Shown here in pieces: positions 28,093 through 58,363 of a stretch of DNA of 64,000 nt. Source of the stretch: Candidatus Poribacteria bacterium (lineage in GTDB: Bacteria > Poribacteria > WGA-4E > WGA-3G); assembly GCA_022827625.1 (NCBI GenBank), contig JAJEIE010000005.1:62001-126000 (forward strand), written 5' to 3'. The notes below the pieces were generated by a model. The model did no database searches. It saw only the letters and a list, made by a program, of their open reading frames with translations, and was not told the origin of the DNA. Each line of letters begins with the position of its first letter. Position 1 is the first letter of the stretch. The position numbers and the translations under genes were made by a program.

Positions 28093-28496
28093 CTGAAAAT
28101 CCTCTATTTTGTTTAAATTAAGACCTTATGGTTCATGCCTTTTATTATTAAAGACGAAATTTTAGAATAGAAAACCTGCATCATTTGAAAGAAATGAAAA
28201 GTCTTCGGATTTTTGAAACTGTTCAGCAGGTAACGTTACCGGAAACCGCGAAGAAACACCTCAGCAAAAATCCTACCTGGGGGTGTCCACATATTTTTAG
28301 ATTCTACTATATGGTAAACCAGATAAATAAACAGACATTTCACCCCAACCTGGTAGGTGCGGTTTCTAACCGCACCGGTGCTGAATGTCCAATTAATTCT
28401 AAGGTTTACCATAAATGACCCGTAGTGCTGGTGCGGTTTCCCAACCGCACAAACTAACTGGTCAGATGTGGATTATAATGTAGCGCAGCCTATCAC
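28093..28496. repeat. Intergenic region with a MITE-like inverted repeat and GC hairpins
   Basis: No gene is convincing here. TATGGTAAACC (28310-28320) and GGTTTACCATA (28403-28413) form perfect 11-bp outer arms of a 104-bp element whose centre holds the hairpin GGTGCGGTT-TCT-AACCGCACC (28356-28376). A second hairpin, GGTGCGGTT-TCCC-AACCGCAC, follows at 28430-28450. ACCATAAAT-type words also occur at 63582, so the element may be dispersed in the genome. Confidence 0.6.
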
Positions 28497-46504: not shown

Positions 46505-47557
46505 ATGCTTTATTCTATCATTGTAAGCGCGGGACTCGAAACCATCGCACGCGAGGAGTTAACCGAACGCTTTGGCGACACGGGACACCTAAAAATCCTT
46601 GAACGCAGACCCCAACGACTCCTTTTTCACTATAAAGGCAACCCGCGCGATCTGTTATCACTCCGGACAGCCGAGCATCTTTTTCTCGTCCTGAAGCGGG
46701 CACCGAAAATGACACGCTCACGGAGTTCTCTCGCAGCGTTGAGCGGTCCGCTCACACGCTTCAATTTCAAAGAGACGTTCGAGTGTTGTCGGCAAGTCGG
46801 TATCAATGTCCGCAAACGCACCCCGTTCCGGGTAACAAGTCGATTGTCTGGAAAGCGAAACTTTCGGAGGCTTGATCTCCAACGCGTCGTGGAGCGTGCC
46901 TTATTGGATCGCGGCTGGTATCTTGCGAAGAGTGGCGCGTCGCTGGATATATGGGCGGAGATACATGGAGACGATGGCTATATTAGCGTCAAACTTTCCT
47001 CGAACGATATGGCGCAACGCTCCTATAAACAAGCGCATATCCCGGCATCGCTCAAACCGACGGTCGCTTATGGCATGGTGAAGCTCTCACGACCGCATCC
47101 AGAGGATGTCTTCTTAGATCCGATGTGTGGTGCAGGGACTATTCTGTTGGAGCGTGCGTTCGTTGGTCGCTACCGCTACCTCATCGGCGGCGATACTTCT
47201 ACAGAGGCGTTAGACGCGACTATAGCAAATTTCGGTAGACAACATCAACCGCGCCAATTCTTCCACTGGGATGCGCGCACCTTGCCCCTACAGCCGAACA
47301 CAGTTGATAAGATTGTCTGTAACCTTCCATTCGGTGAAACAATCGGGAATGTCTCGCAACTCACAAATCTCTATCGCCAGTGTCTCGGAGAGTATGCGCG
47401 TGTCCTAAAGCCGAGAGGCAGGATGGTGCTACTCACCTCGCAACGCAAGTTCTTGGATGCTGGGTTGAAACAACGCCGATCTCTCAAGGTTTCACAGCGC
47501 CTGACCGTCGATGTACGTGGCATGCGCGCGTGGATATACGTTATCCGTCCCCGATAA
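46505..47557 (+). CDS. THUMP-domain RNA methyltransferase (TrmN/Trm14-like or RlmL-N-like)
   Basis: Protein of 350 residues. A THUMP-type RNA-binding N-terminus (about 1-160) is followed by an SAM-dependent Rossmann domain with motif I 'DPMCGAGTILLERA' (about 205-218) and motif IV 'CNLPFGE' near 280, the N-L-P-F variant of the N-P-P-[FYW] motif used to methylate exocyclic amines. Proteins of this length methylate the N2 of guanosine in tRNA (archaeal Trm14, bacterial TrmN, position 6), whereas the 23S enzyme RlmL is about twice as long. I therefore favour a tRNA guanine-N2 methyltransferase. It stands alone, convergent with the Gfo/Idh gene three bases away. Confidence 0.8.
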   Translation: MLYSIIVSAGLETIAREELTERFGDTGHLKILERRPQRLLFHYKGNPRDLLSLRTAEHLFLVLKRAPKMTRSRSSLAALSGPLTRFNFKETFECCRQVGINVRKRTPFRVTSRLSGKRNFRRLDLQRVVERALLDRGWYLAKSGASLDIWAEIHGDDGYISVKLSSNDMAQRSYKQAHIPASLKPTVAYGMVKLSRPHPEDVFLDPMCGAGTILLERAFVGRYRYLIGGDTSTEALDATIANFGRQHQPRQFFHWDARTLPLQPNTVDKIVCNLPFGETIGNVSQLTNLYRQCLGEYARVLKPRGRMVLLTSQRKFLDAGLKQRRSLKVSQRLTVDVRGMRAWIYVIRPR

Positions 47558-47560
47558 TAT

Positions 47561-48646
47561 CTAAATCTCAGGTACGCGGACCGCCACCTCTTTTCCTGCT
47601 GCATGTGAGCGGAAAATACCGTCCATAATCACATTCGTGAGCAGGACCCCTTCTGGCGGTATCGGCGACGGTGCGTCTGCTTTGACGGCTTCACGGAACG
47701 CTGTCATCTGTGCCTCCCAGACATCAACCTCTGGGAACCCTGAGAGTTGGATCGTCGTCATTCCCTCCGGTGGGTTCGGTGCTGCAGTCAGACCTTCCGA
47801 TTCAACCAATTTCTTAAGGTCACCGCTATATGCATCGGCATAGATAGTCGGTCCATTCAAAGAGATGCCCATTTCTTTACCGAGACAGAAACTCGGACCG
47901 AGTGAGTCCTGATGGATTGCCCACGAAATTTTAAACACCATTACACTACCATCGTCAAACCGCACCCACGCCACGCCGAACTCTTCGACATCCATAATAC
48001 CACGGAATCTCGGATCTTGCTGAGAGATATAGTCCTCGGTGATAGCGGAGACGCGCACAGGTTTCGGATACCCCATCGCATACAGTGAGTTGTGCATGTT
48101 ATAGACCCCGATGTCAACGATTGCACCCGCACCTGCTGTCTTTTTGTAAATGAACGTACGTCCTGGATTCCCGCGGCGTCTGCCGCCTGAAGACTCAGAG
48201 TAGTAGATGTCGCCGAGAAAGCCTTCGTCGATGACCTTCTTTGCGAATTGGAGTCTCGGATTGAACGTGCTGTGGAGACCGATTTGCAAGATTTTGCCGG
48301 ACGCTTTTGCTGCGCGTGCCATCGCCGTAGCATCTGGGAGCGTCGCTGCCATCGGTTTTTCACAGAAGACGTGTTTACCGGCGTTCAGTGCCGCAACGGT
48401 CGGTCGCCGATGTCCTTGATTATACGTGCAAACGCTGACTGTATCAATCTCGTCCATCTCCAGCATTTTGTTGTAGCTGGTGAAGACGTGTTTCTTTGGG
48501 ACACCCCACTGTTCAGCGGCTTCGTTTGCCTTACTTTTGATGATGTCGCAGACGGCGACGATCTCGAAACCACCGACTTTCATATAGGTTCTCTGGTGTG
48601 CGCGTGAGATGCCACCTGTACCCACAATACCGACTCGAATCGTCAT
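47561..48646 (-). CDS. Gfo/Idh/MocA family oxidoreductase, copy 1
   Basis: NAD(P)-dependent oxidoreductase of 361 residues. The Rossmann start is 'VGIVGTGGISRAHQ'; the catalytic-domain landmark 'FCEKPMAATLPDA' (about 95-107) contains the conserved E-K-P, with the Lys taken to act in catalysis. C-terminal 'GGRRRGNPG' and 'MHNSLYAMGYPKPVRVSAIT' match other members acting on sugars or inositols. The gene is a near-duplicate of the one upstream (48667-49752), with identical length and only 20 bases between. RBS GGAGAG on the minus strand. Substrate unknown. Confidence 0.9.
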   Translation of the reverse strand: MTIRVGIVGTGGISRAHQRTYMKVGGFEIVAVCDIIKSKANEAAEQWGVPKKHVFTSYNKMLEMDEIDTVSVCTYNQGHRRPTVAALNAGKHVFCEKPMAATLPDATAMARAAKASGKILQIGLHSTFNPRLQFAKKVIDEGFLGDIYYSESSGGRRRGNPGRTFIYKKTAGAGAIVDIGVYNMHNSLYAMGYPKPVRVSAITEDYISQQDPRFRGIMDVEEFGVAWVRFDDGSVMVFKISWAIHQDSLGPSFCLGKEMGISLNGPTIYADAYSGDLKKLVESEGLTAAPNPPEGMTTIQLSGFPEVDVWEAQMTAFREAVKADAPSPIPPEGVLLTNVIMDGIFRSHAAGKEVAVRVPEI

Positions 48647-48666
48647 GTTATTCTCTCCTTGTTATC

Positions 48667-49752
48667 CTAAATCGCAGGTACTCGGACCGCAACCTCTTTC
48701 TGTGCTTTATGCGATCGGAAGATACCATCCATAATTACATTTGTGAGCAGGACACCCTCCGGTGGTATCGGCGACGGTGCGTCTGCTTTGACGGCTTCAC
48801 GGAACGCGATCATCTGTGCCGACCAGTTATCTTCCGCTGGGAATCCAGAGAACTGGATCGTCGTCATACCTTCCGGCGGGTTCGGTTCCGCTGTTAACCC
48901 TTCCGATTCAACAAACTTCTTGAGATCCCCGCTATATGCATCGGCGTAGACAACCGGTCCATCCAACGAGATCCCCGCTTTTTGACCCAGATGGAAGTTG
49001 CCACCGAGTGAATCCTGATGCACTGCCCAAGAGATTTTGAACACCAACACGCCACCATTTTCAAACCGCACCCATGCCACGCCAAACTCTTCGACATCCA
49101 TGATGCCGCGGAATCTCGGATCTTGTTGTGAGATGTAATCCTCGGTGATAGCAGAGACACGCACGGGTTTCGGATACCCCATCGCATACAACGATCTGTG
49201 CATATTGTAGACCCCAATATCGACGGTTGCCCCTGCCCCGGCGGTCTTTTTATAGATGAACGTATGTCCGGGATTCCCGCGGCGTCTGCACCCGGCGGAT
49301 TCGGAGTAGTAGATGTCACCCAGTAATCCTTCTTCGATCATCTTTCTGGCGAACTGGAGTCTCGGACTAAACGTCGGATTGAGACCGATTTGCAGGATTT
49401 TGCCGGATGCCTTTGCGGCTCGGACCATGGCAGTCGCATCTGGGAGCGTCGCTGCCATCGGTTTTTCACAGAGGACGTGTTTACCGGCGTTCAGTGCCGC
49501 AACGGTGGGTCGGCGGTGTCCTTGATTATACGTGCAGACACTCACTGCATCGAGCCCCTCCATTTCGAGCATTTTATTGTAGCTTGAGAAGGCGTGCTTT
49601 CTTGGAACACCCCACTCGTCAGCGGCTTGGTTCGCCTTACTTTTGATGATGTCGCAGACAGCAACAATCTCGAAACCGCCGACTTTCGCGTAATACTGTT
49701 GGTGTGCGCGTGAGATGCCACCCGTACCAATGATACCGACTCGGACTGTCAT
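48667..49752 (-). CDS. Gfo/Idh/MocA family oxidoreductase, copy 2
   Basis: Protein of 361 residues from the ATG ending at 49752; the longer frame upstream has no RBS and runs into the divergent promoter. Rossmann motif 'VGIIGTGGISRAHQ' and catalytic 'LCEKPMAATLPDA' are present. It differs from copy 1 mainly in loops ('GGVLVFKISWAVHQ' against 'GSVMVFKISWAIHQ', 'VYADAYSGDLKK' shared), so the two are recent tandem paralogues, probably acting on related substrates or as a heteromer. Both would be read from the promoter at 49792-49820. Confidence 0.9.
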   Translation of the reverse strand: MTVRVGIIGTGGISRAHQQYYAKVGGFEIVAVCDIIKSKANQAADEWGVPRKHAFSSYNKMLEMEGLDAVSVCTYNQGHRRPTVAALNAGKHVLCEKPMAATLPDATAMVRAAKASGKILQIGLNPTFSPRLQFARKMIEEGLLGDIYYSESAGCRRRGNPGHTFIYKKTAGAGATVDIGVYNMHRSLYAMGYPKPVRVSAITEDYISQQDPRFRGIMDVEEFGVAWVRFENGGVLVFKISWAVHQDSLGGNFHLGQKAGISLDGPVVYADAYSGDLKKFVESEGLTAEPNPPEGMTTIQFSGFPAEDNWSAQMIAFREAVKADAPSPIPPEGVLLTNVIMDGIFRSHKAQKEVAVRVPAI

Positions 49753-49791
49753 GTTATCCTCTCCTTGTGAACAGGATTGCGTTGACATAAG

Positions 49792-49820
49792 AGTGTAGAC
49801 GAAACGGGTTTGTAATGCAA
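49792..49820 (-). promoter_or_regulatory. Promoter of the tandem Gfo/Idh genes
   Basis: Minus strand TTGCAT (49820-49815), 17-base spacer, TACACT (49797-49792). It lies about 45 bases from the ATG at 49752 and overlaps the divergent promoter. Confidence 0.55.
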
Positions 49821-49838
49821 GGGAAAATGTGATATACT
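49810..49838 (+). promoter_or_regulatory. Promoter of the PIN-toxin operon
   Basis: TTGTAA (49810-49815), 17-base spacer, TATACT (49833-49838). The next gene has AAAGGAG and starts at 49883. The two divergent promoters share the -35 region, so a repressor bound here could control both sides. Confidence 0.55.
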
Positions 49839-49882
49839 GCAACGTAAACATGCTATGCAGTGATAGAAAGGAGAATGGCACT

Positions 49883-50524
49883 ATGGATATCAAAAAACGG
49901 TATCACGATTTGCAAAAAGCGAGTCAGACGCACCTCGGTTGGCACTGGTTATTGCCGTTGTGTCCTGCTGACGCGTATCACTTACAAGCGTTGAATATTT
50001 CTGCACCCAATGAACGATGCGATTTTGATAGTTTGGTGTTGGGTCTTGCTAAGATACTCATCGATTCCTTAAATGAAGAATCGCTCAAAAAACTGATTCC
50101 TTATGAAAAGCAGGAGTCATTTAAAGATAAAAATGGCATTGCCCTCCTTGAAGCTGCCTTGCATTTGAACAACCTCGACGGTGTGGATGTTCACATTGAA
50201 TTTCTATGGAAACTGGAGAGCCTTCGCTCAGGTAGGCGTGCGGATCAGAAAAGGAAAAACTATTCAAAGATAGCCAAACATTTTGACGTTGAAAATCAAA
50301 GTCTACAGTATGTTTTTGCCAACATCCTGAATAGTGCCTCAGATATGCTTGATTACTTTATTGCTCTGGTGAGTAGTGGGCAAATCCATGAAACCATCAA
50401 GCAAAATCACAGATTAGCAGCAGATGCTATTTTTAAGGAGATGATTGGAATGGCAGAATCCGAGCGGACCGATGCTTCGGTCAATCATGATGATGTCATC
50501 TATGAATTGGAAACGAAGTTATGA
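49883..50524 (+). CDS. Large partner of a PIN toxin (antitoxin-like, HEPN-like helical region)
   Basis: Protein of 213 residues starting at ATG 49883 (AAAGGAG upstream); its stop overlaps the PIN gene start as ATGA, the coupling used by toxin-antitoxin operons. It is two to three times longer than VapB-type antitoxins. The N-terminal 160 residues are helical: 'FDSLVLGLAKILIDSLNEES', 'LLEAALHLNNLDG', then 'LESLRSGRRADQKRKNYSKI', which resembles the R-S-x-G-x-A-H region of HEPN-like proteins but lacks its His. The last 30 residues, 'MIGMAESERTDASVNHDDVI', are polar like an antitoxin tail that wraps its toxin. I recognise no ribbon-helix-helix or AbrB fold. Antitoxin function is inferred from coupling. 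Confidence 0.5.
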   Translation: MDIKKRYHDLQKASQTHLGWHWLLPLCPADAYHLQALNISAPNERCDFDSLVLGLAKILIDSLNEESLKKLIPYEKQESFKDKNGIALLEAALHLNNLDGVDVHIEFLWKLESLRSGRRADQKRKNYSKIAKHFDVENQSLQYVFANILNSASDMLDYFIALVSSGQIHETIKQNHRLAADAIFKEMIGMAESERTDASVNHDDVIYELETKL

Positions 50525-50931
50525 TTTTTGTTGATACTGGTGCCTGGATTGCTATCTTTAACCCGAGGGATCAACACCATCATGAAGCTGTAGCGATTTA
50601 CAACGATCTGAGACGCCGAGAAATTAAACTTTTAACCACTGACTACGTGATTGATGAAACCGTAACTCGCCTCAGATATGACGAAAATCACCGTATGGCA
50701 GTTCTGTTCTTAGGATATATTGAACACTTGGAAAGCGCGACTGATGTTGTTCTTGTAGCGATTGATAACGATCTGTTTTTGAAGGCAAAGGCACTTTTTC
50801 GTCAATATGACTCAGCACGGTTATCCTTTACCGATTGCACGAGCTTTGTGGTGTGTAGAGAAAATAACATTGCTGAAGCCTTTGCTTTCGACCAGCATTT
50901 TGCGATGATGGGGATTGGTTTGCGGCGGTAA
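50521..50931 (+). CDS. vapC: PIN-domain ribonuclease toxin (VapC-like)
   Basis: Protein of 136 residues, normal for VapC. The four acidic residues expected to bind magnesium are in place: Asp5 in 'FVDTGAWIA', Glu46 in 'VIDETVTRLR', Asp105 in 'SFTDCTSFV' and Asp124 in 'AFDQHFAMMG'. PIN toxins cut tRNA or rRNA and are held inactive by the partner encoded just upstream, here with a 4-base overlap. The gene abuts a convergent nuclease cluster. Stand-alone PIN genes of this subfamily (the 'xTxxxxDExxT' type) are common in mobile and defence-rich regions. Confidence 0.85.
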   Translation: MIFVDTGAWIAIFNPRDQHHHEAVAIYNDLRRREIKLLTTDYVIDETVTRLRYDENHRMAVLFLGYIEHLESATDVVLVAIDNDLFLKAKALFRQYDSARLSFTDCTSFVVCRENNIAEAFAFDQHFAMMGIGLRR

Positions 50932-51049: not shown

Positions 51050-52000
51050 TTATTCTCTAAATACTTTCTCACGGTGCCATGCCAATGCGTCTTGTGCAGG
51101 ATAGAGTATTTCGTTTTGTGGTAGACAGATAAGATTGTTATGCAAATTACTGAACCTCCACTCCGCCGGTCCCTCCTCGGAAATAAGTCTTGATACTTTC
51201 ACTTCATAGTTTTCGTTCAAAGAGATTAATCCTTGGTCAAAAGCCCAATGGTGTAATTTGCAAAGCGATATGCCGTTCCGAATATCGTCGTTGTACGAAA
51301 TGTGAAACGGGATAATATGTGCAGCGTCAGTTATACTTTTCCCCTCCTCCGTGACAACTCGTAACTGGCAAACGGCACAAGTGTAGTTATACCAATGCAT
51401 TATTTCTCGACGGAAGGCTGTCCTACGGACTGGGTTTTCTGCCTCAACCGGTTCTGACCTTACCTGATATGAGAATGGGTATTCAGTGACTTCTTGAATC
51501 AGTAATTGTCTGTGTTCTCCAATTTGCTGTTCTTCTCTAATAACATTTTCAATTGCTTGCCTACGATCTGGGAAGTACTTTTCAATAATAGCTTGGCGGA
51601 TGATTTCTCGTTCATGAGATTGTGTAAGAAGATTAAAAAACGGTTCATCCAAATACGCGTAAGCAATAAGTTCCCGCAGTCGACGAATAGATGAAGGGAT
51701 TCTGCGACCAAGACTATTTAACTGCGTTTCTCGATTAACGTTAGGGTAGAGATACCAAAACCCATCGTTTTTTAAATAGTAAAACGGGTTATAAATTTTA
51801 CCTTTCCAGTCTGGGAATTTTGCAGTATATTTCGTAAAGGCATCAATCAAGTTGGGAGAAAGTTGAATTTTATTCTCGTGAATATCACCGTGTTCAATGA
51901 GTTGAATAACTGCCAATAGGAGACAAGGCTTGTAGGGTGCAGATTGTCGGAACCTGCCTAGATTTTCTATCTGTTGCACATAGTCTCGTAACGTACTCAT
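51050..52000 (-). CDS. HNH endonuclease with ScoMcrA-type sulfur-binding-like domain, copy A
   Basis: Protein of 316 residues from the ATG ending at 52000, chosen because its start ('MSTLRDYVQQ') lines up with that of copy B; the frame is open for 23 more codons. N-terminal domain, about residues 1-160: 'APYKPCLLLAVIQLIEHG', 'NKIQLSPNLIDAFTKY', 'NPFYYLKNDGFWYLYPN'. This pattern is that of the DNA-phosphorothioate-binding domain of ScoMcrA-like restriction enzymes. The HNH module has Cys208-x2-Cys211, catalytic-type His228 in 'DAAHIIPF', Asn242, Cys247, and His250/His251 in 'CKLHHWAFDQGLI'. It probably cuts DNA carrying a modification bound by the first domain. Domain identity by memory; not searched. 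Confidence 0.75.
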   Translation of the reverse strand: MSTLRDYVQQIENLGRFRQSAPYKPCLLLAVIQLIEHGDIHENKIQLSPNLIDAFTKYTAKFPDWKGKIYNPFYYLKNDGFWYLYPNVNRETQLNSLGRRIPSSIRRLRELIAYAYLDEPFFNLLTQSHEREIIRQAIIEKYFPDRRQAIENVIREEQQIGEHRQLLIQEVTEYPFSYQVRSEPVEAENPVRRTAFRREIMHWYNYTCAVCQLRVVTEEGKSITDAAHIIPFHISYNDDIRNGISLCKLHHWAFDQGLISLNENYEVKVSRLISEEGPAEWRFSNLHNNLICLPQNEILYPAQDALAWHREKVFRE

Positions 52001-52122
52001 CGGTTTTTTCTGTATTCCTTTAATTGATGCTAACGGCAGGGATATGTTGTAACTGTAGAAAACCCACATGCCGTTCGATGTGTTCCAGTCGGTGTTATGG
52101 GACTAACGAGTTAACTCACAAG

Positions 52123-53079
52123 TTATTGTCTCAATACATTCTCACGATGCCACGCTAAAGCATCTTGAGCTGGATAGTGCTTATCCTGTTCTGGCAAAAG
52201 TATAGATTTATTACTCAGCGCGCTTAGCAGCCACTCCGTTGGACCCCGTTCAGACATAAGTTCTGAAACAATCACCTTATAGGTATTAGAAAAAGAAATT
52301 AGTCCTCTATCAAAAGCCCAATGATGCAATTGACAAAGCGAAATTCCGTTCCGTACGTCATCATTCCCTGAAATACTAAACGGAATGATGTGAGCGGCTT
52401 CGGTCACGCTTTCTCCATCCATCGTTAGGATATACAATTGGCAAACTGCACAAGTGTAGTTGTAGATCCCCATGATTGCCTGCCGAAAACCAGCCGTCCG
52501 AATTGGTTCTTTTGTTTGAACGAATTCTAAGGAATTTTGCGTTGAAAAGGTGTGTTCGACGCGTTGAAGCAGGTCCGCCCGATACGCGCCAATCTGCTCT
52601 GTTTCTGCAAGGAGTTCTTCAATTATCTGCTTGAAATCTGGAAGATAGGTGCGGATAAGCGTTTGACGGAGTACCTCACGATCGTGCGGGACAGTAAGCA
52701 AAGTAAAGAGATCGTCATCCAAACTTGCATAGGCAACAACTTCTCGAAGGCGGGAAGTTGATCGAATTCGGCTTGCAACGTCCAAGACTTTTTCATACCC
52801 AGCGTTTGGATGAAGGTGCCAGAATCCACGGCTTTTTAGATGGAAAAATGGCAAAGCGATATCAGGTTTCCGATTTATTACTACTTTTGTCCAATACTTC
52901 AGAAAAGTCTCTGCCAAATCTGGCGAAAGAGGAATTTTATTTTCCTGAACCTGCCCGTGCTCAATCAGTTCAATAACTGCTAACAGGAGAAGGGGCTGGT
53001 GCGGTGCCATACCGTGTGCCCGATCTACCCTCAACTTTTTCATTTTTTGCTGGTATTTTTGTAGAATACTCGTGGACAT
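52123..53079 (-). CDS. HNH endonuclease with ScoMcrA-type sulfur-binding-like domain, copy B
   Basis: Protein of 318 residues, paralogue of copy A. N-terminal domain: 'GMAPHQPLLLLAVIELIEHG' (23-42), 'NKIPLSPDLAETFLKYW' and 'LPFFHLKSRGFWHLHPN' (76-92); this copy matches the sulfur-binding-domain pattern more closely than copy A. The HNH domain has Cys210-x2-Cys213, His230 in 'EAAHIIPF', Asn244, Cys249, His252/His253 in 'CQLHHWAFDRGLI'. The most different part between the two copies is the linker (about 160-195) and loops of the first domain, while HNH residues are conserved in both. Gap of 122 bases to copy A, 16 bases from the DGQHR gene. Confidence 0.8.
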   Translation of the reverse strand: MSTSILQKYQQKMKKLRVDRAHGMAPHQPLLLLAVIELIEHGQVQENKIPLSPDLAETFLKYWTKVVINRKPDIALPFFHLKSRGFWHLHPNAGYEKVLDVASRIRSTSRLREVVAYASLDDDLFTLLTVPHDREVLRQTLIRTYLPDFKQIIEELLAETEQIGAYRADLLQRVEHTFSTQNSLEFVQTKEPIRTAGFRQAIMGIYNYTCAVCQLYILTMDGESVTEAAHIIPFSISGNDDVRNGISLCQLHHWAFDRGLISFSNTYKVIVSELMSERGPTEWLLSALSNKSILLPEQDKHYPAQDALAWHRENVLRQ

Positions 53080-53095
53080 TTTTTAGAAATATAGG

Positions 53096-54355
53096 CTACA
53101 ATACTTTTTTGGGCAATTCAACTGCTTTCATTTCGTCTCCTAATGCCTTAGCATAACCTTCGCGCAATTTATTTACATCTCCCGGAAATTGATTTAGCAT
53201 ATAGAATAACAAATTTTTAACAAGCACTTTACCTTTTATTATCATCCTTTTTTGTGTGGGGTGCCAAATGACTCCCCTATAAGGCGTTTGAGTCAAGTCT
53301 GTAGGTAATTTTGAAATCATCTTGAAACACTTTGGGAGGGGGTATCTCTCCGCCAGTATCGCGATGATTTCTGTTAGAATTTTCAGCCCTATAGGACGAA
53401 AAAGGACGCTACCTCCATTCGGGTGTCTGTACTTTTTGACAACTATCGAACTATCGGATGCATCAGCAAATTCCTTCAGCTGCGAAAAGCTATCTGTAAG
53501 TCCTTTAAAATAATCGCAAGCATGTTGATAATGTTTATCAAGCATGTGATCCGGTTGACGCACTTTTGTGAGTTCATTTTTTTTCTCTATAAGTCTCTTT
53601 TTATTCGAGATGATGTATATTTTCGTAAATAATATTTCCAATAGATCATAAAGATTTCCAATCGTAGTGAGACAAGTCTGGTTGCTTTTCGGGACATTAT
53701 CAGTTGAACTGTTTAAGATTCGATCATCCATAAACATTTGATTTTTCATAACCAAATGCCGGGCAGTAATGGCCATTGTATCATCTTCGTCAAGAGCGAT
53801 AATTTCTCCTTTTGAAACCCGAACAACATTTTTGTTCAATGTTGTGAAAAGTCTTCGGGTTCTTTCCATTCCATCCAGATCTGTCCTATGAGCAATGAAG
53901 ATTGTTGACAATTTATCTTCACCCAATTGCGGGTTTTCTGCTACAGCTTCTCTAATTCCTATAAGTCGGTGTTGCCCATCAAGTGTGAACAATTCTTCTT
54001 CACCGTTCAAACTGAGAATTCCAATCCCAGCAACCACATCTTCCGGGAAATCTTCACTATTCAATTGGTTATTACTCTCTATGTGAGTAATCTCGTGCCA
54101 GTTGGGATCTCCCTCATAGATTGCTACAATCAGCGAATTAAAAAAACGTTGTTCCTGTTTAAGAAGGTAATCTTTTATTTCCTTACCACGTTTTCTTTTT
54201 ATTTCCTGCTGTACCATTTCGCTCAAGGTTTTGCTTTGGTAAATTTCTTCAGCGATCCTGACCCTTTCAGCGATGTCTTTGAGTTTCATAAGTGTAGGAT
54301 AATACACCCAATCACCCATTATGCCTCTTAGCGAGGAAAGATACAATTTTTTCAT
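53096..54355 (-). CDS. DGQHR-domain protein, DndB/DpdB-like
   Basis: Protein of 419 residues. The DGQHR motif is at residues 126-130 in 'FTLDGQHRLIGIREAV', followed by 'FIAHRTDLDGMERTRRLFTT' and 'LNKNVVRVSKGEIIALDEDD', which is the typical continuation ('R..F..lN...'). DGQHR proteins include DndB, the regulator of the Dnd phosphorothioation operon, and DpdB of the 7-deazaguanine DNA-modification system, where it acts with the base-exchange enzyme. Neither dndACDE nor dpdA is in the window, so this is an orphan relative. Its operon partners are a GIY-YIG nuclease 15 bases upstream and two SBD-like HNH nucleases downstream. A DNA-processing or regulatory role in that set is inferred. Confidence 0.75.
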   Translation of the reverse strand: MKKLYLSSLRGIMGDWVYYPTLMKLKDIAERVRIAEEIYQSKTLSEMVQQEIKRKRGKEIKDYLLKQEQRFFNSLIVAIYEGDPNWHEITHIESNNQLNSEDFPEDVVAGIGILSLNGEEELFTLDGQHRLIGIREAVAENPQLGEDKLSTIFIAHRTDLDGMERTRRLFTTLNKNVVRVSKGEIIALDEDDTMAITARHLVMKNQMFMDDRILNSSTDNVPKSNQTCLTTIGNLYDLLEILFTKIYIISNKKRLIEKKNELTKVRQPDHMLDKHYQHACDYFKGLTDSFSQLKEFADASDSSIVVKKYRHPNGGSVLFRPIGLKILTEIIAILAERYPLPKCFKMISKLPTDLTQTPYRGVIWHPTQKRMIIKGKVLVKNLLFYMLNQFPGDVNKLREGYAKALGDEMKAVELPKKVL

Positions 54356-54370
54356 ATTTTTTTATCCTCT

Positions 54371-54850
54371 TTACAATTTGGCTGTGGGGCCTATTTCTGC
54401 TGAATATCCTGCTTGGGAAAAGGGAGGTATAAAAGTGTCTAACAACTTCTGCTCCAGTTCTTTTATATTCAATTCAGACGGATCGACTTCAACATAATAA
54501 AAATATAGATAGTTTTCCCACGTAGTCAACATGAAATGGATTAAAGGTCTTTCAGGTCTTCTTTTTTCAGAAAGGTAATCTCTAAATCTCTTTCGTAAAT
54601 TACGCTCGCTGTTATGTCCGGTTTGTCCAATATACATTAAGTAGCCGTGTGATGGAAATCCAGCAATTCTTGGTTCAACGAAAAAGGCGTAAACGCCTTT
54701 CTTAGTGGGGATCTGATTTGCATTATTTTGTTCAAATTTGACGCATTTCCAATTCAGCGGAATCGGTGGATCCGTGTAAGAATCCCATTGTGGTGTCAAA
54801 AGCAGAAAGTCTTGCTTGTAGATTCTTGCACTGCTGATCACATCGTACAT
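54371..54850 (-). CDS. GIY-YIG nuclease domain protein
   Basis: Protein of 159 residues, first gene of the defence-type operon. The GIY motif is 'GVYAFF' at residues 52-57 and the YIG motif 'MYIGQTG' at 72-78; the catalytic Arg is within 'NLRKRFRDYL' (84-93), and a Glu-containing helix 'IKELEQKLLDTFIPPF' (129-144) supplies the metal-binding Glu. A cap of about 50 residues precedes the domain. Members cut DNA as homing endonucleases, repair nucleases or restriction enzymes. The minus-strand promoter at 54886-54914 and a weak GGAG 13 bases from the ATG precede it. The next gene begins 15 bases downstream. Confidence 0.8.
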   Translation of the reverse strand: MYDVISSARIYKQDFLLLTPQWDSYTDPPIPLNWKCVKFEQNNANQIPTKKGVYAFFVEPRIAGFPSHGYLMYIGQTGHNSERNLRKRFRDYLSEKRRPERPLIHFMLTTWENYLYFYYVEVDPSELNIKELEQKLLDTFIPPFSQAGYSAEIGPTAKL

Positions 54851-54885
54851 GTACCCTAATATCTCCTAATGGTAAATAAAAAGCA

Positions 54886-54914
54886 ATTCTAACATACTTC
54901 GTGAAAAAATTCAA
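54886..54914 (-). promoter_or_regulatory. Promoter of the GIY-YIG/DGQHR/HNH operon
   Basis: Minus strand TTGAAT (54914-54909), 17-base spacer, TAGAAT (54891-54886), 36 bases from the ATG at 54850. It is AT-rich around the start site. The two downstream HNH genes have no clear promoter of their own, except possibly in the 122-base gap between them. Confidence 0.5.
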
Positions 54915-55744: not shown

Positions 55745-56575
55745 ATGAGACTATTTATGACTGTTGCTGGCGTCCTCTGCGCCGCAATGCTTATGCTTCC
55801 GGCACTTACAGCCGATGCTGCGAATAAAGTAGATGTTTTCATCTATACCGACACCGTACAGTGGATCGGTCAAGCCGCAGCCGTGGAAGAAGCTGAAATA
55901 CTGGCGGACCTACTTGACGGACAAGACGGAATCGGTGAACTCATCCTCCACGGACCAGCAAAAGATGTTGAAGCTTGGACGAAAGACCATACCGTGGACA
56001 ATGGACATCATCTCATTGTTATGTTCGGTGATGTGCCAGTCGAAATTTACGATGTCGGGAAAGACGCAAAGAAAGAAACCGTCGCGGAGGAGTTCCTTGA
56101 TGCAGGGAATACCTTCTCAAACAGTGCCGACTACTTCTTCTGGGGACAAGGCGGTAGAAATGAAGAAGCCGGTATCAAGAATATGATGGATATCCCCAAT
56201 ATGGTGCAGTGGGATGATAATACGGCTATGGAGGTCACCAAAGAAGGGAAGGAACTGACACCGTCACTTGACGACTACGCGACAGACCGTCCGTTCCACG
56301 TTGATCTGCTTGATGGCGATTGGGTACTGGAAATCGCATTCGCTTCAGATACCGGAGATCAAAAGGGTGACCGCTGTGACCCGTGTATTGTCCACAATAC
56401 GAAGACGAATGGACGACTCATTCAGGTCTACCAGACCGCTAACCAAGATGACCCGAAAGGCGAGGTTATCGCCGAAATTATTCTCAACTACTACCTTGAG
56501 ACTGTCGGCGCACTTGACGTTGATCCTCAAGATAAACTTCCCGCTTTGTGGGGAGATATGAAAAGAAGGAGATAA
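55745..56575 (+). CDS. Secreted protein, paralogue 1, with KLxxxWGxxK tail
   Basis: Protein of 276 residues, RBS ATAGGAG. Signal peptide 1-25 (ending 'TADA'). The mature domain shows Rossmann-like alternation ('KVDVFIYTDTVQWIGQAAAV', 'HHLIVMFGDVPVEIYDVG', 'SADYFFWGQGGRNEEAGI', 'RLIQVYQTANQDDPKGEVIA'), which recalls ThuA/GATase1-like folds; this is a weak impression and not a family call. Two cysteines sit in 'RCDPCIVH'. The C-terminus reads 'VDPQDKLPALWGDMK' plus three basic residues, the tail shared with the proteins at 56582 and 5268. It overlaps no gene; the paralogue follows after 6 bases, so they are co-expressed. Confidence 0.6.
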   Translation: MRLFMTVAGVLCAAMLMLPALTADAANKVDVFIYTDTVQWIGQAAAVEEAEILADLLDGQDGIGELILHGPAKDVEAWTKDHTVDNGHHLIVMFGDVPVEIYDVGKDAKKETVAEEFLDAGNTFSNSADYFFWGQGGRNEEAGIKNMMDIPNMVQWDDNTAMEVTKEGKELTPSLDDYATDRPFHVDLLDGDWVLEIAFASDTGDQKGDRCDPCIVHNTKTNGRLIQVYQTANQDDPKGEVIAEIILNYYLETVGALDVDPQDKLPALWGDMKRRR

Positions 56576-56581
56576 CATTTA

Positions 56582-57385
56582 ATGCGAAATATTTTTCTCT
56601 CACTCACGCTTATTGCGTTAATGGCGCTGCCGCTAACACCCGTCCTTGCTGCCGGTGAAGTCGCTATCTACACCGGAACCACGCAATGGATCGGGAAAGC
56701 ACCCGCCGATGAGCAGGCACAAATCTGTGTTGATATGCTCAACGATGCCGGTATCTCTAATACGTGGTTCGACAGCGATGGCGATATGGATGCTTTGGCG
56801 GATTGGATGGAGAGTGTCACCGGTGATGATGGACTCGATGTCTGTGTCCTCTACGGTGATTTGCCACCGACCCTGTATCCAGATGGCAACGCACAACCCG
56901 ATGGCACGATCGGTGAAACCTTCATCGAAACCACTGATGGCGATACCTTCATCAACCACGCTGACTATATGTTCTGGGGTTTGGCTGGTAGAAACGAAGA
57001 AGGCGGACTGAAAAACATGATGGATATCGACGGGATTACCATGTGGGACGATAACACCGACATGGTTGTCACCTCCGAAGGCGCGGCGATCTCTCCCACG
57101 CTCACCGATTTCCAATCTGACCGCCCCTTCCACGTCGATGAATTAGAGGGCAATTGGGAAGTCGAAGTCTCTCTTGCACAGAACGATGATGGCACTCGTG
57201 CCGATCCGATTATTGTTCGCGATGGAAACCTCGGTCGACTGATTCCAGTCATACAGACAGCGAACGGCGATGAACCGAAAGGCGCAGTTGCTGCTGAAAT
57301 TATTATCTGGCTCATGTCAACGACACCTGTTGAACCTGCCGATAAACTCTCCACAACGTGGGGTGCTTTGAAAGCCGTCCAGTAG
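56582..57385 (+). CDS. Secreted protein, paralogue 2, with KLxxxWGxxK tail
   Basis: Protein of 267 residues. Signal peptide 1-23 (ending 'VLAA'). It shares with its neighbour 'ADYMFWGLAGRNEEGGLKNM', 'MWDDNTDMVVTSEG', 'DRPFHVDELEGNWEVE' and 'GRLIPVIQTANGDEPKGAV', so the two are tandem duplicates of moderate divergence. The Asp-rich loops could bind calcium. The tail is 'VEPADKLSTTWGALK' plus three residues. Its ThuA/GATase-like fold is a guess. A hairpin follows at 57418. Confidence 0.6.
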   Translation: MRNIFLSLTLIALMALPLTPVLAAGEVAIYTGTTQWIGKAPADEQAQICVDMLNDAGISNTWFDSDGDMDALADWMESVTGDDGLDVCVLYGDLPPTLYPDGNAQPDGTIGETFIETTDGDTFINHADYMFWGLAGRNEEGGLKNMMDIDGITMWDDNTDMVVTSEGAAISPTLTDFQSDRPFHVDELEGNWEVEVSLAQNDDGTRADPIIVRDGNLGRLIPVIQTANGDEPKGAVAAEIIIWLMSTTPVEPADKLSTTWGALKAVQ

Positions 57386-57417
57386 GCGCGAGATTTTCGG
57401 TCTCAATATTTTCTGTG

Positions 57418-57442
57418 TAGGCGCGCTTTATAAGCGCGCCTA
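57418..57442 (+). terminator. GC-rich hairpin after the secreted-protein pair
   Basis: TAGGCGCGC (57418-57426) pairs perfectly with GCGCGCCTA (57434-57442), loop TTTATAA. The T run is poor (TACTTTG), so termination is plausible but not certain. Confidence 0.6.
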
Positions 57443-57490
57443 TACTTTGAGATTTCAGTCATATAGAAATATGTATCTGTAGAATTAGTG

Positions 57491-58363
57491 ATGAAATTTA
57501 ACAAACCCAGTGTTCTGATTACATTTTCGATCCTTGCCTTGTTTGTATCTGCCTGTCACGATCCAATAGAGTCCCCGCTCGTTGGCACCCTCCCCATTGA
57601 AACCATCACGACACCGAAAGATAATGCCGTCATGGTGTATGTCCCTGCTGGTGAGTTTCTCATGGGGACCAGTGACGCAGAAATTGAACACTACAAGGAA
57701 ATCTTTCCGCTCCGTGATATTGCTCGATATGACAATGAACGTCCACAGCGTACCGTCTATCTTGATGCTTTCTATATCGACAAGTTTGAGGTGACGAACC
57801 GACAGTACAAACAATTCCTCAGCGAGACAGGGTATGAACCGCAGCACTATTTGGATCGTTTGCCGTATAACGCGCCCGATCTGCCTGCGGTTGTCTTGGA
57901 CTGGGAAGATGCCGTCGCGTATGCTGTATGGGCAGGCAAGCGGTTGCCTACCGAGGCAGAATGGGAGAAAGCCGCACGTGGCACGGATGGACGTCTCTGG
58001 CCCTGGGGAAACGTATTTGACGATACGAAACTCAGTGGTAACGACGGCAGAGGCCACAGAGATGGCTATAAAGAGACCGCACCTGTCGGGCAGTTCCCGC
58101 AAGGTGCAAGTCCCTACGGCGCACACGATATGGCAGGCAATCTCTGGGAATGGGTGTCGGATTGGTACGATCCAAACTATTATCGGACTTCGCCGCCGAA
58201 TGTCAATCCGCAAGGACCCGAAACCGGCGATGGTCATGTGCTGAAAGGGGGCGGTTGGGCGGAAAATTTAGACTTTACCCGGTGTGCCAGTCGACTCGGT
58301 GGAGAACCCGGATCCCTCCTACGTGGATTTAGATGCGCGATGGACGCACCCTCTGGAAAGTAG
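57491..58363 (+). CDS. SUMF1/FGE-sulfatase-modifying-fold lipoprotein
   Basis: Protein of 290 residues from ATG 57491. Lipobox Cys near residue 20 ('LFVSACHD'). The SUMF1 (C-type-lectin-like) fold is complete: 'VYVPAGEFLMGTSDAE', 'FYIDKFEVTNRQYKQFL', 'VVLDWEDAVAYAVWAGKRLP', 'TEAEWEKAARGTDGRLWPWG', 'GAHDMAGNLWEWVSDWYD', and 'LLRGFRCA' at the end. True formylglycine-generating enzymes have two active-site cysteines in a 'CYRYRC'-like segment; here that segment is 'LDFTRCASRLG', so both catalytic cysteines are not in place. It is therefore likely a binding or regulatory member and not a sulfatase maturase. No sulfatase gene is nearby. Confidence 0.85.
   Translation: MKFNKPSVLITFSILALFVSACHDPIESPLVGTLPIETITTPKDNAVMVYVPAGEFLMGTSDAEIEHYKEIFPLRDIARYDNERPQRTVYLDAFYIDKFEVTNRQYKQFLSETGYEPQHYLDRLPYNAPDLPAVVLDWEDAVAYAVWAGKRLPTEAEWEKAARGTDGRLWPWGNVFDDTKLSGNDGRGHRDGYKETAPVGQFPQGASPYGAHDMAGNLWEWVSDWYDPNYYRTSPPNVNPQGPETGDGHVLKGGGWAENLDFTRCASRLGGEPGSLLRGFRCAMDAPSGK

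Follow-up and report, generated by a model that had tools for sequence, protein, structure and literature searches.

We analyzed a 64,000-nucleotide stretch of DNA (the window, to which all coordinates without a locus prefix refer) from the genome of a sponge-symbiont Candidatus Poribacteria bacterium, which comprises 5.0 Mb in 41 contigs. The subject of this work is a four-gene operon on contig 8 of that genome. It encodes a GIY-YIG protein, a DGQHR protein, and two related proteins, HNH1 and HNH2, in which an N-terminal sulfur-binding domain (SBD) is joined to a C-terminal HNH nuclease domain. In the direction of transcription, the features are:

54886..54914, minus strand: weak promoter-like site upstream of the GIY-YIG gene (9/12 consensus positions, TG before the second hexamer).
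54371..54850, minus strand: GIY-YIG (URI) nuclease-family protein, 159 amino acids (PF01541; G-V-Y, Y-I-G, R and E motifs present).
53096..54355, minus strand: DGQHR/DndB-like (ParB-superfamily) protein, 419 amino acids (PF14072, TIGR03187).
52123..53079, minus strand: HNH1, N-terminal SBD and C-terminal HNH nuclease, 318 amino acids (8h0l match, PF13391).
51050..52000, minus strand: HNH2, the second SBD-HNH paralogue, 316 amino acids from the family start codon (8h0l match, PF13391).

An earlier, sequence-only reading of the window had described four consecutive minus-strand open reading frames (ORFs) with gaps of 15, 16 and 122 bases, and we found them as described if HNH2 starts at 52000. 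This start is favoured by the family alignment; the ORF is open to 52069, the first in-frame ATG. The identities proposed for the four products also agreed with profile matches: PF01541 for the GIY-YIG protein, PF14072 and TIGR03187 for the DGQHR protein, which carries an exact 'TLDGQHRL', and PF13391 for both HNH proteins, which are 54% identical to each other. The proposal that a promoter leads the operon stood only in part. A site is present at 54914-54886, but its 9/12 match is not clearly above chance in a region rich in promoter-like matches (19 observed, 11.2 +/- 2.9 expected), and we therefore regard it as weak. The gene set as a whole is far beyond chance, and many other Poribacteria have the GIY-DGQHR pair and the HNH genes as well. 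The complete GIY-DGQHR-HNH-HNH order, whose recurrence had been suggested as a check, is also present in the relatives G055 and G063, and GIY-DGQHR-HNH occurs in G048, G057, G079 and G082. In G059 and G074 the locus runs off the contig, and G053 has a broken HNH part.

The assignment of the N-terminal domains of HNH1 and HNH2 to SBDs held up both in sequence searches and in the predicted fold. When a profile of 39 relatives was compared with solved chains, 8h0l, the Hga SBD bound to phosphorothioated (PT) DNA, came first (E 3.5e-27) and ScoMcrA next, and the single proteins matched 8h0l as well (E 3.4e-19 for HNH1, E 1.8e-15 for HNH2). The AlphaFold model of HNH1 has a mean predicted local distance difference test score (pLDDT) of 70, with most of the N-terminal domain above 80, and this domain aligned with 8h0l at a template-modelling (TM) score of 0.87, the SprMcrA and ScoMcrA SBDs being matched next. 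By homology and modelled fold, then, these domains are SBDs. The C-terminal domains match PF13391 (E 1e-13 for HNH1, E 1e-11 for HNH2). The catalytic residues H230, N244, H252 and H253 are invariant in the family alignment, and the motif is unbroken in every copy checked beside dnd genes. The pocket residues are H27, Q28, L76, P77 and H80 in HNH1 and Y-K-N-P-Y in HNH2, as against H-R-Y-P-A in ScoMcrA. The pocket proline is invariant, and the position of Q28 in HNH1 is K in 26 of 38 family members and Q in 12. Because the pocket residues other than the proline vary, the predicted sulfur binding is likely but not certain, and least sure for HNH2. We infer PT-DNA cleavage by the two enzymes, and their sequence specificity, from this likeness to known enzymes.

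The GIY-YIG protein scores just over the PF01541 cut-off (23.4 bits; cut-off 22.6) and was aligned with GIY partners from Phaeovulum, Roseobacter and Rhizobium. The DGQHR protein matches PF14072 (DndB) at E 4e-29 and TIGR03187 at 117 bits (cut-off 59) but does not reach the DndB equivalog TIGR03233 (64 bits; cut-off 328), and its similarity to DpdB is weak (PADLOC E 0.007). Its predicted structure, in which the N-terminal half has pLDDT <50, gave no fold match, and a sequence search for solved relatives returned none. In other organisms, the pair sits after sspD in Phaeovulum, Albidovulum, a Rhodothermales metagenome-assembled genome (MAG), a proteobacterial MAG and Roseobacter, and it adjoins dndBCDE on the Rhizobium NXC14 plasmid; L009-L012 are among the loci with the pair behind sspD. 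A tree of the pairs nests the window clade among those linked to ssp genes, a placement that carries a long-branch warning. The GIY partner is missing at L048; otherwise, window-type DGQHR loci carry a GIY-YIG gene. We found no literature that combines GIY-YIG with DGQHR and phosphorothioate. In our best reading, the GIY-DGQHR pair is a PT-associated accessory module, and its whole action may be pictured by analogy with SspE and DndB. The GIY-YIG partners of DGQHR proteins on the Roseobacter (L123:9704-10234) and Rhizobium (L125:7412-8002) plasmids are annotated as hypothetical only. Two cyanobacterial plasmids (L121:12602-13186; L122:11802-13528) carry 40%-identical SBD-HNH genes with GIY-YIG and ParB or DUF262 genes nearby; the surrounding stretch examined has no dnd or ssp annotation.

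In Poribacteria, window-type HNH genes and an intact dndE exclude each other by locus and by genome. We found 28 dndC loci and scored 26, leaving out one truncated at a contig end and one of a divergent type. Where a window-type HNH gene lies beside dndC, dndE was intact at 0 of 11 loci; where it does not, dndE was kept at all 15 (Fisher p = 1.3e-7). Among the 11 broken loci, five retain 5' remnants of dndE (approximately 11, 15, 19, 21 and 73 codons, counted by eye at the junctions), dndD is cut to approximately 20-31 codons in three, and dndE is cleanly missing in three. These loci do not descend from one inherited event, because the junctions differ and about nine changes of the label are needed on the dndC tree, five of them forced by well-supported branches. 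The independent contrasts on this tree all run in the same direction, the five well-supported ones alone giving p 0.06. Nor has dndE been relocated, since a genome-wide search recovered only the same fifteen intact genomes plus a truncated copy in G080. Of the order's 73 genomes, 40 have full-length window-type HNH genes, and intact dndE was found in none of these 40 and in 15 of the 33 others (p = 7e-7, with genomes counted without phylogenetic correction). Conversely, the 15 genomes that keep dndE have either no member of the HNH family or a broken one (a stop codon in G031, fragments in G054 and G072). Co-occurrence of the HNH family with dndC as such gave no significant link (p 0.35); the signal appears only once dndE integrity is scored. 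MAG incompleteness could hide genes in single genomes. At L048 and L053, dndC stays an open and conserved frame though dndD is cut to approximately 30 codons and dndE is gone.

Previous work gives this exclusion a precedent. In the E. coli/Salmonella system, PT modification disappears when dndE is deleted (PMC4182426). When ScoMcrA was introduced into S. lividans, all ten survivors examined had lost the dnd island (PMC3009677), and Lutz et al. predicted that SBD-HNH genes avoid dnd clusters and observed <3.6% nearby (PMC7461809). The Poribacterial pattern corresponds to what many natural repeats of the ScoMcrA/dnd experiment would leave; here we infer the direction of cause.

The window genome itself was searched for dndC, dndD and dndE, and none was found; no modification gene adjoins the operon. 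With respect to Dnd, the operon is therefore an orphan. The sequence-only reading had stated that the operon has no modification module, which is correct for its surroundings and for dnd genes; the genome does, however, carry sspB, sspC and sspD on contig 25. There, L044:9677-19839 holds the sspBCD cluster, an SspE-like DUF262-HNH protein, a second, divergent GIY-DGQHR pair and, upstream, a canonical SBD-HNH gene whose product passes NF045808 with 338 bits (cut-off 180). The sspC gene of this cluster contains an in-frame insertion of 37 codons (L044:14580-14690) derived from a dispersed element of approximately 108 bp with inverted ends. About 41 matches to the element are present in the genome, the observation also taking in window positions 28310-28413, and the SspC proteins of relatives are without exactly the 37 inserted residues.

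Window-type HNH genes coexist with Ssp, as sspD is present in 38 of the 47 genomes with HNH-family hits; none of 61 hits lies near sspD. The association of the two has p 0.008 within the order, which may reflect shared ancestry and is not used here as evidence. Since the window-type HNH coexists with Ssp and excludes complete dndCDE, the target of the operon is likely to be foreign Dnd-marked DNA, and self-restriction through the cell's own Ssp marks is unlikely. Consequently, the earlier suggestion of an orphan restriction half with marks made elsewhere in the genome is right about the presence of PT genes (ssp, contig 25) and probably not about the target. The canonical SBD-HNH subfamily behaves differently: sspD is found within 12 kb for 23 of its 33 hits in the phylum, which is not what one would expect of PT-cutting enzymes, and it coexists with intact dndE in several genomes. 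As the window type excludes dndE yet tolerates Ssp, while the canonical type lies near sspD and coexists with dndE, the two subfamilies probably read different marks.

The operon occupies a hotspot whose flanks are conserved in relatives around varied defence cargo. Its neighbours in the window are:

46505..49893: left flank, a THUMP-type methyltransferase and two Gfo/Idh-type oxidoreductases (names read from sequence); synteny in relatives.
49829..50524, plus strand: 231-amino-acid partner of the PIN gene, probable antitoxin; overlaps the PIN start, and the pair is found in many hotspot loci.
50521..50931, plus strand: PIN-domain protein at the convergent end of the hotspot, a neighbour outside the operon (PF01850, E 5e-12); same place in relatives.
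55745..58363, plus strand: right flank, two related secreted proteins and a SUMF1-like protein (name read from sequence); synteny in relatives.

The cargo types at this hotspot are dndCDE, a set of HKD-helicase, CxC and small-protein genes, an SNF2-ParB-ParB-MBL set, GIY-DGQHR, window-type HNH, and PIN with its partner. The PIN gene and its partner (49829-50931) are probably a toxin and its antitoxin, and many relatives have the two at this position of the hotspot. At L061:8876-10571 and L066:7010-8486, what reads from sequence as a CBASS-like nucleotidyltransferase and a SLATT-type effector lies between dndD and SBD-HNH. Viral contigs and phage records gave distant HNH matches only, and we saw no carriage of the operon by phages.

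We propose, with a probability of roughly 60%, that the operon is a type IV-like, PT-dependent restriction module directed against Dnd-marked DNA, which makes no marks of its own, is incompatible with Dnd modification of the host, and has the GIY-DGQHR pair as an accessory. The SBDs of HNH1 and HNH2 would bind Dnd-type phosphorothioated DNA and the HNH domain would cut nearby. Incoming DNA from Dnd-positive relatives, phages or mobile elements would thus be restricted, and a cell gaining a working dndCDE would be killed. Because of these two effects, HNH1 and HNH2 would persist only where DndCDE is absent or broken. The GIY-YIG and DGQHR proteins may form an accessory module borrowed from PT systems, in which the DGQHR protein (a ParB-superfamily member, as are DndB and the DGQQR domain of SspE) is most likely a nucleoside triphosphate (NTP)-binding sensor or regulator, and the GIY-YIG protein most likely its separate nuclease.

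Several observations weigh against this proposal. HNH1 has Q at the position of ScoMcrA R117, and HNH2 has Y and N in place of H116 and Y164; in ScoMcrA, R117Q weakens binding, and Y164 is not conserved among homologues (PMC6224610). Both proteins stay below the cut-off of NF045808, the profile for PT-DNA restriction (142 and 129 bits; cut-off 180), with an alignment that spans their full length. At the dndE-less loci, dndC and dndD are open and under purifying selection (median ratios of non-synonymous to synonymous substitution, dN/dS, of 0.054 and 0.116); no relaxed selection was seen, contrary to what decay would lead one to expect, and the two genes may therefore still do something. In another phylum, on the Ca. 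Chlorohelix plasmid NZ_CP128401.1 (L120:13998-20000), the gene of a 36%-identical SBD-HNH protein lies directly beside an apparently intact dndBCDE, in which dndE is annotated, and an extra DndB gene, so the exclusion is no rule for the wider SBD-HNH family. The genome-level exclusion was counted without species-tree correction, and part of the exclusion could be cassette replacement, because the HNH genes and dndCDE share one hotspot.

If cassette exchange by recombination accounted for the whole pattern, an SBD-HNH cassette would simply overwrite the dndE end, and the HNH enzymes might act on any modification or none. HNH genes and dndCDE do occupy the same hotspot in many genomes, and the deletion junction of several loci falls directly at the stop codon of the HNH gene. 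However, other cassettes at the same end (HKD-helicase/CxC/small protein, SNF2-ParB-MBL and GIY-DGQHR) leave dndE intact in 15 of 15 cases, whereas no HNH-linked junction spares it. Moreover, the deletion is separated from the HNH gene by other genes at L049, L051, L060, L061, L066 and L081, and the HNH family and dndCDE, both of which are also present elsewhere than in the hotspot, still exclude each other by genome. We consider a purely positional origin rather unlikely. The purifying selection on dndC and dndD, and a dndC that is open even where dndD is a stub, would suit another account, in which SBD-HNH replaced DndE in DNA targeting, so that DndC-DndD-HNH functions as a PT system without DndE and the window operon is a still more reduced form. 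We hold this to be very improbable: PT modification is lost upon dndE deletion in the E. coli/Salmonella work cited above, unrelated genes often lie between dndD and HNH, dndD is also lost in three loci, and most HNH-family genomes are without any dndCD.

The operon might also be the restriction half of its own contig-25 Ssp system, HNH1 and HNH2 or the GIY-DGQHR pair reading Ssp marks (CpsCA) as SspE does. The presence of sspB, sspC and sspD in the genome, the frequency of sspD among genomes with the HNH family, and the SspE-like protein, second GIY-DGQHR pair and canonical SBD-HNH on contig 25 are in keeping with this. Yet the Ssp cluster already has its own effectors, window-type HNH genes do not lie near sspD, and searches of four genomes that have both GIY-DGQHR and HNH genes (G048, G053, G059 and G079) yielded neither an intact sspD nor any sspC, dndC or dndD (G079 has sspD fragments and the HNH of G053 is broken; G055, by comparison, has a contig with sspC). 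This explanation appears improbable. Finally, GIY-DGQHR could be a two-protein SspE, its DGQHR part sensing PT marks or nucleotides and licensing the separate GIY-YIG nuclease. Such a roaming PT effector would in Poribacteria have parted from its modification partner and joined the tandem SBD-HNH enzymes in one four-protein defence system without host marks, which we regard as a doubtful, speculative extension. The sequence-only reading had also described a self-contained four-gene system, and this was not borne out, because the GIY-DGQHR pair and the HNH genes each occur without the other in the same hotspot; in G084 and G071, the pair accompanies dndCDE without HNH.

The proposed restriction module can be compared with several known systems. 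ScoMcrA, SprMcrA and EcoWI (NF045808) share with the window enzymes the N-terminal SBD fold, the invariant pocket proline, the GFW motif and the C-terminal HNH domain, and the conflict with Dnd modification seen in ScoMcrA is expected for the window enzymes too. They differ in that the window has two tandem paralogues behind GIY-YIG and DGQHR genes, which fall below the NF045808 cut-off, whose cleavage is predicted, and whose pockets read H-Q-L-P-H and Y-K-N-P-Y in place of H-K/R-Y-P. The Hga SBD is the best solved match (approximately 33% identity, TM 0.87) and has the L-P-x-x-H pocket segment in common, but there the SBD alone was solved, and Hga has K where HNH1 has Q. DndB (TIGR03233) and related proteins have the DGQHR domain and PF14072 in common with the window protein and lie beside PT genes, whereas the window protein is far below the equivalog cut-off and is paired with a GIY-YIG gene. 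SspE joins a DGQQR NTPase-type domain to a nuclease, and in other phyla GIY-DGQHR pairs occupy the sspE place behind sspD; unlike SspABCD-SspE, the window has two separate proteins, a GIY-YIG rather than an HNH nuclease, and no modification genes at the locus (sspBCD on contig 25, the operon on contig 8). The pair that recurs behind sspD or beside dnd genes is a candidate PT effector.

SBD-HNH enzymes are predicted to be incompatible with Dnd modification, yet some genomes have them beside dnd genes. Whether this meant partnership or conflict had been uncertain. The loss of dndE, and sometimes dndD, beside this SBD-HNH at about ten distinct Poribacterial deletion junctions points to conflict. 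Before an SBD-HNH gene next to dndCD is taken for the restriction half of a functioning system, the state of dndE should be checked. Rakesh et al. (2024; PMC10853773) reported SBD-HNH (their wHTH) and URI/GIY-YIG nucleases beside Dnd modification genes; their survey treats the HNH protein as a partner of the modification module, whereas the Poribacterial HNH type goes with the loss of dndE.

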